From: Bacteroidota bacterium
GTDB taxonomy: Bacteria > Bacteroidota > Bacteroidia > B-17B0 > Aurantibacillaceae
Length of the DNA: 64,000 bases
Assembly (NCBI GenBank): GCA_029237825.1
Contig: JAQZBQ010000010.1
Span: 62,001 to 126,000 of the forward strand
Direction of reading: 5' to 3'
Part shown: positions 57,124 to 62,421 of the stretch, in pieces
Layout: every line of letters starts with the position of its first letter
Position numbering within the stretch: position 1 is the first letter of the stretch
Notes under the pieces: generated by a model
Database searches by the model: none
What the model saw: only the letters and a program-made list of their open reading frames with translations
What the model was told of the DNA's origin: nothing
Position numbers and translations under genes: made by a program

Positions 57124-59610
57124 ATGAAAAAAGTACTTTTAGCTTCGGCATGGATTTTAGCTTCCACGCCTTTTTTTTCACAACAAAACCAAACACTCAA
57201 TTCTGCCGAAATTCTCCTAAACCTTAAAAAATTAAATACCGTTGCTAGTGTTTTGTATATCGCGGCGCATCCCGACGATGAAAATACACGCTTACTGGCT
57301 TATCTGGCCAATGAAAGGAACTTCAGAACCGGTTACCTTTCTCTTACACGAGGTGATGGCGGCCAGAATCTTATTGGTAAAGAACAAGGAGAATTGTTAG
57401 GAGTAATCCGTACACAGGAATTACTTGCAGCCCGTAAAACAGATGGAGCCGAACAATTTTTTACCCGGGCCTACGATTTTGGCTTTTCGAAAACACCCGA
57501 AGAAACTTTTTCTTTCTGGAATAAAGACAGCATTTTATCGGATGTAGTTCTCACGATTCGTCGTTTTAAGCCGGATGTTATTATTTGTCGTTTTCCGACA
57601 ACCGGCGAAGGCGGACATGGGCACCACACCGCATCTGCAATTTTAGCTGTGGAAGCATTTGAAGCCGCTGCAGATCCAAAACGGTTTCCTGAACAATTAG
57701 TTGAAGTACAAACCTGGCAGGCAAAACGAATTTTATGGAATACGTTTAATTTCGGCACAACAAATACCACTTCGCCAAATCAACTAAAAATAGACGTTGG
57801 TGGGTTTAATCCTTTATTGGGAAAGAGCTATGGTGAAATCGCTGCGGATAGTCGATCAAATCATAAAAGTCAGGGCTTTGGGACTGCAAGGCAACGCGGG
57901 TCAACCATCGAATATTTTAAACATCTTAAAGGCGACAGCGCAAAAACCGATTTGTTTGATGGAATTGTAACCGGTTGGTCACGCTTTAATGGTATGGATA
58001 AAATCGGGAAACTCATTGATGCCTGCATCGGAAAATTTAATCCTTTAGTTCCGGAAAATTCAATTTCAGGCCTTGTTACCGTTTATAAAGCATTACAAAC
58101 TTTCACAACCAAGGAAGCTTACTTAACCCATTGGAAAGAAATAAAACTGAAGGAAACTGAAAACTTATTACTGGCCTGTTCCGGTTTATGGCTGGAAGCT
58201 GTTGCATCTGAATATTCGGGTATTGCGGGCGAAGACATTAATATATCAGTTAATATAGTAAACCGTCTCAAATCAGAGATTCGTGTAAAAAATATTTCAT
58301 ATTTGAATGGAGATACCACGCTTTCGCTGACTTTGAACCCAAATGAACTTTATACTTTTAAAAGAAAAGATAAACTTCCTAAACAGCTGGCGTTTTCAAA
58401 CCCATACTGGTTGAACCAAAAACATGAGTTGGGACTATTTCATGTTTCGGAACGGGCATTGATTGGGAAACCGGAAAACGCCTCAGAAACTACCGTTTCA
58501 TTTAATATTCAAATTCTGGACTTAAATCTAAAAATTGAAAGGGAACTCGTTTATAAATTTACCGATCCTGTGAAAGGCGAAATTTACAGACCTTTTGAGA
58601 TTCTTCCGCCGGCAACCGTTCACATACCTGAAAAAGCATTTATTTTTACCGACACAACTTCAAAAACCATTCTGCTAACCGTAAAAGCCAATACAGCACC
58701 GGTAAATGGAAGATTGGAATTAAACGGAAGTGAAGGTTGGGACTTTCATGTGTTAAACCCCGATTTTAGTCTCACTGAAAAAGGTGAGGAAACAGTAATT
58801 ACCGTAAAGGCTTCTGCTAAAGGCCAGGCGAAAGATGGAAAATTTAATGTGTTGCTCAAAGTGAATGGCGCCAACTATCAAAAAAGTATTAAACGCATTG
58901 AGTATGATCACATTCCTTACCAGTTTATTTTAACCGATGCACAAGCCGGATTGGTAAACATGGAATTGAAAAAAGCAGGAAATCGTATAGGATATATTCC
59001 GGGTGCCGGAGACGAAATACCAGCAGCATTGAAACAGATTGGATACCACGTAACCATCCTGACTGACGACTTGTTAAGCAAGGGAGAGCTTTCAGGATAC
59101 AACGCTATTGTTACAGGAATTCGTGCATATAACACAAGCGAACGTTTACCGGCGCATTATCACACCTTAATGGATTATGTAAAAAACGGTGGAAACTTAA
59201 TTGTGCAGTATAATACCAATAGCCGGGTCGGTCCGGTAAAAACCAAAATTGGCCCCTACCCTTTTACCATTTCACGCGATCGGGTAACTAACGAATCCGC
59301 AGAAGTAAAGTTCAAAAACGAAAAGCACCAGGTTCTCAATTACCCAAACACAATCTCGTCAAAGGACTTTGAAGGCTGGGTTCAGGAACGGGGAATATAT
59401 TTTGCCACCGACGTGGATAGTCATTATGAAACCATACTCACCATGAATGACCCGAACGAAAAAGCAAATGAGGGCAGTTTGATTATCGGAAAATATGGAA
59501 GAGGAAACTTTGTTTATACAGGCCTCGCTTTTTTCAGACAGCTACCTGCAGGTGTTCCGGGAGCCTACCGGTTGTTTGTAAATTTACTCAGTCTTCCTGA
59601 AAATAAATAG
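57124..59610 (+). CDS. Secreted PIG-L (LmbE) family deacetylase
   Basis: 828 residues with a signal peptide (1-19, cut near PFFSQ). The N-terminal 250 residues are a PIG-L domain: AAHPDDE at 48-53 gives the zinc His and two catalytic Asp residues, and GHGHHTAS near 164-168 the later His. PIG-L enzymes remove acetyl groups from N-acetylglucosaminyl compounds. The middle is beta-rich, and the last 220 residues contain a GATase/ThuA-like flavodoxin fold (VTGIRAYNT, YVKNGGNLIVQYNT, FVYTGLAFFRQLP). A periplasmic GlcNAc-containing glycan or muropeptide is the likely target. A tiny membrane protein and a sodium symporter follow at once, in the same direction. Confidence 0.9.
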   Translation: MKKVLLASAWILASTPFFSQQNQTLNSAEILLNLKKLNTVASVLYIAAHPDDENTRLLAYLANERNFRTGYLSLTRGDGGQNLIGKEQGELLGVIRTQELLAARKTDGAEQFFTRAYDFGFSKTPEETFSFWNKDSILSDVVLTIRRFKPDVIICRFPTTGEGGHGHHTASAILAVEAFEAAADPKRFPEQLVEVQTWQAKRILWNTFNFGTTNTTSPNQLKIDVGGFNPLLGKSYGEIAADSRSNHKSQGFGTARQRGSTIEYFKHLKGDSAKTDLFDGIVTGWSRFNGMDKIGKLIDACIGKFNPLVPENSISGLVTVYKALQTFTTKEAYLTHWKEIKLKETENLLLACSGLWLEAVASEYSGIAGEDINISVNIVNRLKSEIRVKNISYLNGDTTLSLTLNPNELYTFKRKDKLPKQLAFSNPYWLNQKHELGLFHVSERALIGKPENASETTVSFNIQILDLNLKIERELVYKFTDPVKGEIYRPFEILPPATVHIPEKAFIFTDTTSKTILLTVKANTAPVNGRLELNGSEGWDFHVLNPDFSLTEKGEETVITVKASAKGQAKDGKFNVLLKVNGANYQKSIKRIEYDHIPYQFILTDAQAGLVNMELKKAGNRIGYIPGAGDEIPAALKQIGYHVTILTDDLLSKGELSGYNAIVTGIRAYNTSERLPAHYHTLMDYVKNGGNLIVQYNTNSRVGPVKTKIGPYPFTISRDRVTNESAEVKFKNEKHQVLNYPNTISSKDFEGWVQERGIYFATDVDSHYETILTMNDPNEKANEGSLIIGKYGRGNFVYTGLAFFRQLPAGVPGAYRLFVNLLSLPENK

Positions 59611-59624
59611 GTAAACGTTAGATC

Positions 59625-59744
59625 ATGGACGAAAATCAAAAATCACCGATTTTAGGTACCTGGAAGAATGTTTACGCTTTAGTAATTGGTGTTTTAGTTG
59701 CCATCATAATTTCACTTTATCTGTTTACAGAACATTATCAATGA
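59625..59744 (+). CDS. 39-residue single-pass membrane protein, likely partner of the symporter
   Basis: ATG at 59625 opens MDENQKSPILGTWKNVYALV, followed by a hydrophobic helix (about 16-35) and a short FTEHYQ tail. The start lies 14 bases after the PIG-L stop, and its TGA overlaps the symporter ATG (ATGA), the classic sign of translational coupling. Very short proteins with a W..VY.....L.......FT pattern preceding sodium:solute symporters are a plan I associate with Bacteroidota, comparable in idea to the YhdT/PanF pair; this is recollection of a pattern, not a search. Probable role: a small accessory subunit in the inner membrane. Confidence 0.75.
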   Translation: MDENQKSPILGTWKNVYALVIGVLVAIIISLYLFTEHYQ

Positions 59745-61435
59745 GCATCACCGACTGGATTGTACTTTGCATTACTCTTTTGTCCATCATTTCCTATGGT
59801 ATCTGGAAAAGCCGTGGTTCAAAAAACATCGAAGGCTACTTGCTTGCCGACCGGCAGATGCCGTGGTACCATGTTGGTTTATCGGTAATGGCCACCCAGG
59901 CCAGTGCCATCACGTTTTTATCGGCGCCAGGACAAGGCTACACCGACGGATTACGCTTTGTCCAATTCTATTTTGGTTTACCATTAGCAATGGTTGTTTT
60001 ATGTATAACCTTCATTCCCATCTTTCACAAACTAAATGTTTTTACCGCTTATGAATACCTTGAAAAACGTTTCGATAATAAAACACGTACGCTAACGGCT
60101 TCACTCTTTTTAATTCAGCGTGGTCTGTCCACAGGAATAACAATTTATGCGCCTGCTATAATCCTTTCAACAATCTTAAGTGTTGATGTGAATTATATGA
60201 TTGTCTTAAATGGGGTTCTGGTAATTATCTATACAGTGTATGGTGGTGCCAAAGCTGTATCATACACGCAACTGTTTCAAATGAGTGTAATTTTTGCCGG
60301 ATTATTTTTAGCCGCGTACATGGTCGTTCACATGTTACCCGATAATGTAAGTTTTAACGATGCATTACACATTGTAGGAAAAATGGATAAACTGAAAGCC
60401 ATTGATACAAATTTTGACCTGAACAACCGTTATAATATATGGTCGGGAATTATCGGCGGATTCTTTTTACAGCTTTCTTATTTTGGCACAGACCAATCAC
60501 AGGTTGGACGCTATTTAACGGGAAAGTCCATTACACAAAGCCGTTTGGGACTTGTGATGAACGGTCTCGTAAAAATCCCAATGCAGTTTTTAATCCTTTT
60601 AATTGGTGTAATGGTTTTTGCATTTTACCAGTTTCATCAGTCACCTCTGTTTTTTAATAAAGTAGAGCTAAAAAAAATAGAAAAAAGTGCTTACAAAGAC
60701 GATTATAAAAAATTAGAAAGCGCGTACGAGGTTGCCTACGAGGAAAAGAAAGCAGAAGTGAACACCCTCATTGAAGCCATTCACGCAGAAAATAAAGAAG
60801 CAATAGATTTGGCAGGAAATAATCTAAGAAAAGCAGATCATAAATCCCAGGCTATCCGGAAAGACCTTCAAAATCTAATGCAGAAGAACGATCCAGATGC
60901 AGATGTGAATGATACGAATTATATCTTCCTGAGTTTTATTACGAATCATTTGCCCATTGGTGTAATTGGTTTACTCATCGCAATCATCTTTTTAGCGTCG
61001 ATGGGTTCGATGGCCAGCGGTTTAAATTCACTGGCCTCAACAACGGTTGTCGATTTTTATAAGCGGCTCATGAAAAAGGACGAGAGTGATAAGAATTATC
61101 TTTTTATGTCTCGCTGGACAACTGTAGGCTGGGGTGTATTCTGCATATTTGTTGCTTTTTATGCGAGCAGGGTTGGAAATTTAATTGAGGCAGTAAACAT
61201 ACTGGGTTCACTTTTTTATGGAACCATTCTTGGAATATTCCTGGTAGCATTTTATATGAAACGCATCAGCGGTACGGCTGTGTTTTACGCCGCATTAATC
61301 GCGGAATGTTTCATTGTATTTGCGTGGTTAACCAACCTAACTGCTTTTTTATGGCTGAATGTAATCGGATGTTTACTGGTTATGTTGTTTGCCTTTGCTA
61401 TTCAATATCTTTTTATAAATAAAAAGGCTGGTTAA
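59741..61435 (+). CDS. Sodium:solute symporter (SSS family)
   Basis: 564 residues and about 13 transmembrane helices. SSS hallmarks: an early GYLLADRQMPWYHVGLSVMATQASAITFLSAPGQGY, QMSVIFAGLFLAAYMV, GTDQSQVGRYLTGKS, and LASMGSMASGLNSLAS, where the Ser residues form the Na2 site in vSGLT-like transporters. Between two helices (about residues 305-390) lies an 85-residue, highly charged helical insertion (ELKKIEKSAYKDDYKKLES onward) predicted to be a coiled coil. Substrate is probably a sugar or amino sugar, judging from the PIG-L gene upstream and murQ nearby, but this is inference. Confidence 0.92.
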   Translation: MSITDWIVLCITLLSIISYGIWKSRGSKNIEGYLLADRQMPWYHVGLSVMATQASAITFLSAPGQGYTDGLRFVQFYFGLPLAMVVLCITFIPIFHKLNVFTAYEYLEKRFDNKTRTLTASLFLIQRGLSTGITIYAPAIILSTILSVDVNYMIVLNGVLVIIYTVYGGAKAVSYTQLFQMSVIFAGLFLAAYMVVHMLPDNVSFNDALHIVGKMDKLKAIDTNFDLNNRYNIWSGIIGGFFLQLSYFGTDQSQVGRYLTGKSITQSRLGLVMNGLVKIPMQFLILLIGVMVFAFYQFHQSPLFFNKVELKKIEKSAYKDDYKKLESAYEVAYEEKKAEVNTLIEAIHAENKEAIDLAGNNLRKADHKSQAIRKDLQNLMQKNDPDADVNDTNYIFLSFITNHLPIGVIGLLIAIIFLASMGSMASGLNSLASTTVVDFYKRLMKKDESDKNYLFMSRWTTVGWGVFCIFVAFYASRVGNLIEAVNILGSLFYGTILGIFLVAFYMKRISGTAVFYAALIAECFIVFAWLTNLTAFLWLNVIGCLLVMLFAFAIQYLFINKKAG

Positions 61436-61520: not shown

Positions 61521-61553
61521 AAATAAAAGTCCTGCCATTTCTGGCAGGACTTT
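61521..61553 (-). terminator. Terminator of the DUF2911 gene
   Basis: Perfect 11-bp stem AAAGTCCTGCC / GGCAGGACTTT with a 6-base loop and a TTTTATTTTT run on the minus strand. It also faces the converging symporter gene. Confidence 0.85.
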
Positions 61554-61572: not shown

Positions 61573-62421
61573 CTATTTATTCTCGGCAATTAATTTTTTT
61601 GCCATGGCAACATAGTCATCATTCTTCGCTTCCGTTGCAAGTGTAATAACTTTCTCTGCCGAGGCTACAGCACCTTTTTTATCACCTTGTTTCGCCTGAA
61701 TTTTTGCTTTTAATAATAGCATCCAGAACGCTTTTGGGTTTGAGGCAATGGCTTTATCTGCCCATTCATTGGCTTTCGTAAGATCCTTATTATTTTCATA
61801 ATAATACGATGCAGCCTGGAAATACGGACGGTTATCATTCACCACATTTGATTCAATATTTTTCATGATCTTCGAATCAATATCCGCAGTTACATTAAAT
61901 GCAACGCGGGTTTTCTCCCAGTCTAATGCAATGTTTGCAGAACTTGAAGTAATATCAGCCACATCAATGGTAAAGGTTTCTACTTTATCATTCAAGGTTT
62001 TTGGCTTAACGTTAAAGCGAACAAGTTCATTTTCTTTTTTATAATCTGCTACATTCCCGCCTAGTGTGAGGTCTTTATACAGCATAACTTCCCAACTATC
62101 TTTGTTTGGGGTAGTATATAATGCATATGTGCCCGCCGGAACAGCATTCCCTTCAACTTTAACATCTTCCCCAAATGTAATTTTGGTAGAACTGTTAGCA
62201 CCCGTTCTCCATAATTTTCCAAAAGGAACAACGTCTCCATAGATCACACGGCCTTTCGCACTCGGCCTTGAATATTCAATTGTAATTTCTGACAAAGCAA
62301 AAGCCTGTTTAACGGTTTGCAGTGGACTTGGTGCTGGAACTTTTAACTGGGCAGTTACGTGTGAGGCGGTTAGCGCCATGAAAGCGGCTACGGTCAATGA
62401 TTTCATCGGGTTTAATAACAT
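61573..62421 (-). CDS. DUF2911 family secreted protein with TPR-like tail
   Basis: 282 residues with a signal peptide (start ATG 62421 or the ATG at 62406; cut near HVTAQL). The DUF2911 domain occupies about 25-175: KQAFALSEITIEYSRPSAKGR, PFGKLWRTGANSSTKITF, VPAGTYALYTTPNKDSWEV. The C-terminal 100 residues form TPR-like helices (LTKANEWADKAIASNPKAF). Many Bacteroidota have several copies, all of unknown role. The promoter region carries a -7 box and an inverted repeat. Confidence 0.9.
   Translation of the reverse strand: MLLNPMKSLTVAAFMALTASHVTAQLKVPAPSPLQTVKQAFALSEITIEYSRPSAKGRVIYGDVVPFGKLWRTGANSSTKITFGEDVKVEGNAVPAGTYALYTTPNKDSWEVMLYKDLTLGGNVADYKKENELVRFNVKPKTLNDKVETFTIDVADITSSSANIALDWEKTRVAFNVTADIDSKIMKNIESNVVNDNRPYFQAASYYYENNKDLTKANEWADKAIASNPKAFWMLLLKAKIQAKQGDKKGAVASAEKVITLATEAKNDDYVAMAKKLIAENK

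Follow-up and report, generated by a model that had tools for sequence, protein, structure and literature searches.

The stretch of DNA analysed here, hereafter the window, comprises 64,000 nucleotides of a contig (JAQZBQ010000010.1) from a member of the Aurantibacillaceae and, towards its end, carries on one strand the genes for a PIG-L family deacetylase, a 39-residue membrane protein and a sodium/solute symporter of the SSS family (Table 1). The start, the single helix and the ATGA overlap with the symporter, which a first-pass annotation had assigned to the small ORF, are borne out by the sequence coordinates and the hydrophobic stretch, and the overlap suggests that the small ORF is probably translationally coupled to the symporter. 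The same 4-nt overlap is found in 63 of 75 pairs from named genomes, with other junctions in the remaining 12, and in 135 of the 221 pairs of a larger set. The PIG-L gene directly upstream was absent from that annotation; it is separated from the small ORF by 14 nt on the same strand and, because of this short gap, the three genes likely form an operon, of which the PIG-L gene would likely be the first. Matches to a Bacteroidetes promoter-type pattern were no more frequent than expected by chance.

Table 1. Features of the small-protein and symporter locus, in positions of the window.
Feature	Position	Strand	Basis or remark
PIG-L family deacetylase, 828 aa, signal-peptide-like N-terminus	57124..59610	+	PF02585, E=4.4e-16
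39-aa one-helix membrane protein	59625..59744 (stop codon included)	+	ATG start; one hydrophobic stretch
Small-protein codons F34-T35, putative periplasmic end	59724..59729	+	Columns 31-32 of the 221-pair alignment; coevolution
ATGA overlap of the small-ORF stop (TGA, 59742-59744) and the symporter ATG (59741)	59741..59744	+	Sequence
SSS sodium/solute symporter, 564 aa, 13 predicted membrane helices (TM0-TM12)	59741..61435	+	Family profiles and structure model
Symporter codons L218-A220, TM5-TM6 loop, coevolving with F34/T35	60392..60400	+	Coevolution
Symporter residues 306-386, helical hairpin inserted between TM7 and TM8	60656..60898	+	Secondary structure of the model
Terminator-like inverted repeat of 12 pairs, separating the symporter from the convergent gene	61526..61553		T tail on the - strand only

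The symporter scores 143.5 bits against PF00474 (curated cut-off 22.8) and 233.4 bits against TIGR00813 (curated cut-off 184), and its structure model (m13642f62db49; pLDDT 85, pTM 0.80) is closest to SiaT (5nva; Z 45.8, rmsd 2.2, 463 residues aligned), followed by NIS, SMCT1 and SGLT. Judged by these profiles and by the model, the 564-aa protein is a member of the SSS family with a LeuT-type SSS fold. The 13 membrane helices and the extra hairpin at residues 306-386 were counted from the secondary structure of the model, and the SSS topology would place the hairpin in the periplasm. The C-terminal helix TM13 of SGLT proteins follows residue 640, and the alignment of the model with SGLT2 stops at residue ~550; since the model ends at the equivalent of that residue, the symporter is devoid of TM13. 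A relative of 807 aa encoded elsewhere (L045:6079-8499; G061:C56) has a long extension past the usual length.

The small peptide is recovered by sequence in relatives, between the same PIG-L and symporter genes. Among 23 relatives carrying the W...Y motif, pN was lower than pS in all 253 pairwise comparisons, and the small-ORF frame had a median pN/pS of 0.40, with 0.81 and 1.40 for the two alternative frames. The third codon positions of the small ORF were also the most variable (0.42, versus 0.26 and 0.15). By the way in which its sequence has evolved, the small ORF is a conserved protein-coding gene, and a chance ORF is ruled out by the purifying selection together with the counts of co-location with the symporter given below. 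Known small-protein families were rejected as its source, the window peptide giving no match above cut-off to any Pfam or NCBIfam model and 35 of its relatives giving weak matches only (for Pfam, among the matches listed, which take in 25 of 39 weak families). No likeness to the symporter profile, as a sign of internal duplication, was detected by hhalign (probability 0.3), and a detached N-terminal helix of the symporter was discarded on the grounds that the symporter retains TM0 (residues 3-24) and aligns to SiaT from residue 1.

The association with the symporter was followed across genomes with a small-protein profile built from 35 rows (A1). Among 100 relatives, the symporter is present in 42 (E<=1e-60), and class-level relatives with symporters of 46-66% identity mostly have a recognisable small ORF upstream; the exceptions near this symporter are G070 (L033), with other sequence between PIG-L and symporter, and G068 (L046), and a symporter paralogue of 40% identity (L048) has no recognisable small ORF upstream. 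In 395 genomes of the phylum, the symporter occurs at 144 places in 143 genomes (E<=1e-90). Among the matches listed, which are the best 150 of the A1 search, 79 of the 81 at E<=1e-4 lie directly upstream of the symporter, and at least 104 of the 144 symporter places have an A1 match in that position. The 40 places without a listed match were all inspected: 19 have an upstream ORF scoring at least 8 bits, 12 a diverged one-helix ORF upstream, judged by eye and in some cases without the Trp, and five a small gene elsewhere in the genome (G369 and four g111 genomes), so that, among the matches listed and the loci inspected, the small gene is missing at four of the 144 places (G257, G208, G231 and G239). 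The two matches at E<=1e-4 away from an intact symporter come from G124, where an intact small ORF precedes a symporter remnant, and from G369, where the small gene lies 108 kb from the symporter on the same contig. In the four g111 genomes, the small gene is found ~15 kb from the symporter with another gene cluster between them (sequence read in L112 and L113).

Scanning named genomes yielded 80 loci, from genera including Pedobacter, Mucilaginibacter, Sphingobacterium, Chitinophaga, Dyadobacter, Tenacibaculum and Algoriphagus, and a few from metagenome bins labelled Ignavibacteriales, Eisenbacteria, Thermoanaerobaculia, Myxococcales and Aminicenantes. The small ORF adjoins the symporter in 76 of them; it lies ~200 bp upstream in L171 and 3.7 kb upstream, still beside PIG-L, in L162, and no small ORF occurs within the flank sequence examined in L152 and L194. 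The small gene has been kept after moving off the symporter in three settings (G369, g111 and L162). The only other SSS protein of the window's own genome (24% identity) is without such an upstream ORF. Its loss in a few lineages shows that some symporters manage without the small protein, which is not always needed.

Several loci show rearrangements of their own. The remnant in G124 (L116; G124:C19) matches the symporter in its N-terminal 26 and C-terminal 55 residues only, possibly owing to an internal deletion, and in kin of that genus (L097, L098 and L099, from G231, G239 and G208) PIG-L runs directly into the symporter, a natural loss, with no small gene genome-wide at E<=0.1 among the matches listed. 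The intervening cluster in L112 and L113 (G123 and G149) contains NagB-like, second PIG-L, SusC/D-like, transporter and kinase-like genes, named by eye. A truncated second copy of the small ORF lies upstream of the intact one in L171 (628-798), and in G388 the small gene and symporter occur twice, near both ends of one contig (G388:C1:21448 and 3845703), one symporter copy having stops, through either duplication or assembly overlap.

The anatomy of the small protein was derived from 221 pairs, taken from 289 loci by an A1 score of at least 8 bits and removal of duplicates (30 scored lower). A Trp at the helix start is present in 217 of the 221 and a Tyr four residues later in 220, frequencies that are biased upward because the pairs were selected on the A1 score. 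Over the 15 residues that precede the helix, Lys and Arg together number 2.6 on average, versus 0.6 after it, and they are more numerous before than after in 191 pairs, equal in 29 and less numerous in one. Because positive residues concentrate before the helix, the positive-inside rule predicts an N-in/C-out topology, and nearly all copies are thus predicted to have the Trp and Tyr at the cytoplasmic end. The conserved residues W13, Y17, V20, L24, I28, L31, T35 and Y38 are spaced by three to four positions, on one face of the helix, and the conservation has a periodicity peak at 100 degrees (p=0.0001; p=0.0034 without the Trp and Tyr). A conserved one-sided stripe along the whole of a helix is expected of a helix packed on a partner.

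Coevolution points to a candidate site for this packing. Mean-field direct coupling analysis (DCA), run on the 221 pairs (effective number 139), gave small-protein F34 and symporter L218 a z of 12.1, and on reduced columns a z of 10.1, a value surpassed by one pair among the 47,586 within the symporter. When the pairing was shuffled ten times within clades, the inter-protein maxima were 4.4-6.2, with F34-L218 at 2.9 or below; the next pairs, T35-A220 and the TM2 sites 82/85 (z ~5), fall inside the shuffle range, and only F34-L218 stands clear of it. Tree-aware sign tests, chosen after the scores were seen, gave a median p of 0.012 for F34 against M218 and of 0.016 for T35 with A/V220. Mutual information (MI-APC) gave no clear inter-protein signal and did not single out F34-L218, and some top DCA pairs are topologically odd (L35, R25). 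The TM5-TM6 loop, with L218 and A220, is periplasmic in the SSS topology, and a C-out helix would place F34 on that side of the membrane too. When small protein and symporter (L156) were modelled as one chain, the small helix had a pLDDT of 46-70, with two alignment rows covering it, and docking is unconfirmed by this model. The claim that the peptide is conserved where the symporter is kept, on which the first-pass annotation had staked its proposal, has been checked and has survived, through the gene tie, the conserved residues, the helix face and the coevolving pair.

LeuT-fold symporters with small membrane partners are already known, and the premise of that annotation, that SSS symporters work by themselves, goes too far, as evidenced by DUF4212, adjoining an SSS gene in the same phylum, and by MAP17, a one-helix subunit of SGLT2, as well as by DUF485 and MetS. 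The closest parallel is MAP17 (PDZK1IP1), which, according to PMC10803289, packs as one helix on the fixed side of SGLT2, binds its TM13 and is termed an 'essential auxiliary subunit'. As in the pair described here, the partner of one helix dedicated to it has the SSS fold (human SGLT2/SGLT1; SLC5 is the animal SSS); MAP17 differs in being an animal protein encoded by a separate gene and in its seat, the TM13 that is absent from the window symporter. The window peptide matched only PF12679 in Pfam (E=0.067), and A1 found no MAP17 match among PDB sequences at E<=10. DUF4212 (PF13937) is similarly a small membrane protein whose gene lies directly upstream of or overlaps an SSS gene in Bacteroidota, ending in L302 at 1746, where the SSS ORF starts, although it has two predicted helices and 85-90 aa and accompanies a different SSS; it has no match in the window peptide or this genome, and hhalign of A1 with three members gave a probability of 1.5. 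The gene for DUF485 (PF04341; YjcH) also immediately precedes an SSS symporter gene (L308), and ActP is an SSS member, although DUF485 has two predicted helices, is longer and belongs to another sequence family. The operon acs-yjcH-actP is named as such in PMC6498577. DUF485 passes the cut-off in one of 61 genomes of the phylum, and neither in this genome nor in the window peptide.

A MetS-like protein (NF033493) has one helix, and its gene overlaps that of a LeuT-fold sodium symporter (L310), which, judged by eye, is an NSS transporter, versus SSS here; the small gene is downstream in that case. For MetPS of Corynebacterium, MetS is called a transporter subunit in PMC2807442. No NF033493 match was detected in the window peptide or this genome. 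Finally, AcrZ, MgtS, MgtU and SgrT act on other transporter families and are not known to be encoded in obligate overlap with their targets. They are cited in PMC10710835 as transporter-binding proteins no longer than ~50 aa. No description of this small protein, or of a one-helix partner of an SSS subfamily, encoded upstream and overlapping across a phylum, was found in the literature searched, with most subscription journals outside it.

Taken together, these data make it probable that the small protein is a dedicated one-helix subunit of one SSS symporter subfamily, MAP17-like by convergence. Its dedication to the symporter, the first half of the earlier proposal, is well supported by genomic co-occurrence, including at loci without PIG-L (see below), and stands; the second half, a physical subunit, stays at the level of what we infer, as do the docking site, translation and a stabilising role. 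The small protein would be made just ahead of the symporter, probably by ATGA coupling, and would insert with its N-terminus in the cytoplasm, so that the conserved face (W13, Y17, V20, L24, I28, L31, T35 and Y38) could pack along the symporter and its periplasmic end could approach the TM5-TM6 loop at L218 and A220, and perhaps TM2. By analogy with MAP17 and SGLT2, it would most likely stabilise or scaffold the transporter and aid its active state, a resemblance by convergence and not by descent.

An unlikely alternative is that the small protein is a regulatory, non-stoichiometric membrane peptide that acts on the symporter, for example by protease shielding or handover in the manner of MgtU/MgtR. 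Loss in a few lineages fits a modulator, and PMC10710835 gives examples of small one-helix proteins that play such parts on other transporters; nevertheless, the 4-nt overlap in most of the named pairs (63 of 75) suggests constant co-production with the symporter. It also seems improbable that the helix acts as a missing 14th helix, in effect split off, replacing the SGLT-type TM13 in a 13-helix symporter. The model, which matches SGLT2 only to ~550 and SiaT over its length, is consistent with this view, as SGLT TM13 is absent, and so is the predicted in-to-out direction, which is that of TM13; however, the coevolving sites are in the TM5-TM6 loop and perhaps TM2, neither of which is known to be the TM13 site, and 13-helix members such as SiaT are not known to require an additional helix.

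That the partner of the small protein is the PIG-L deacetylase instead of the symporter is very improbable. PIG-L adjoins the small ORF in the window and, at 50 of the 80 named loci, is found no more than 420 bp upstream of the symporter, and in L162 the small ORF has stayed beside PIG-L, away from the symporter; nevertheless, of 18 named loci in which PIG-L is missing from at least 3 kb of upstream sequence, 17 still pair small gene and symporter, so the small gene appears dedicated to the symporter and PIG-L is dispensable for the pairing, and coevolution with the symporter, the pairing for which alone it was computed, also argues against PIG-L. Hardly credible is a leader ORF in which only the act of translation matters, coupling ribosomes into the symporter gene, since the ATGA overlap common in relatives, which would suit it, is set against selection on the amino acids, the conserved Trp/Tyr and helix face, the retention of the gene after relocation and the other junctions in 12 of the 75 named pairs.

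The neighbourhood provides further observations. In loci of the Chitinophaga/Sphingobacterium type (L126, L133-L136, L147, L148, L158, L167, L177, L188, L189 and others), PIG-L and the one-helix ORF are separated by a further small membrane ORF of ~47-67 aa, which is rich in glycine, has two hydrophobic stretches and is absent from the window. Tail to tail with the symporter, the window contains a gene at 61573-62421 (-), presumably of the DUF2911 type; a relative of it is present in 32 of the 80 named loci, 31 times on the strand opposite the symporter and often no more than 500 bp away, and MurQ, next door in the window, recurs in one of the 80 loci only. With respect to the symporter substrate, PIG-L and the convergent gene recur and no pathway follows from these neighbours, PIG-L being only a hint; no description of PIG-L with a symporter in Bacteroidetes was found in the literature searched, again with most subscription journals outside it.

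The preferred reading of a dedicated one-helix subunit can be extended, as a possible and still rather doubtful generalization, to a large SSS subfamily, in most Bacteroidota and some neighbouring phyla, that would be an obligate two-protein transporter, formed by a 13-helix SiaT-like symporter and a one-helix subunit at the periplasmic TM5-TM6 loop and TM2, which arose independently of MAP17 to do the same job. If this were true, the pair would be a simple bacterial counterpart of SGLT2-MAP17, whose helper role is still debated, and the question of how one helix enables an SLC5-type transporter would become accessible to bacterial genetics, with natural cases of a helper gene that is coupled, lost or relocated available for comparison. 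Moreover, the symporter expressed alone may be inactive or unstable, and a common nutrient transporter of a major phylum would be studied and annotated at present minus one part.
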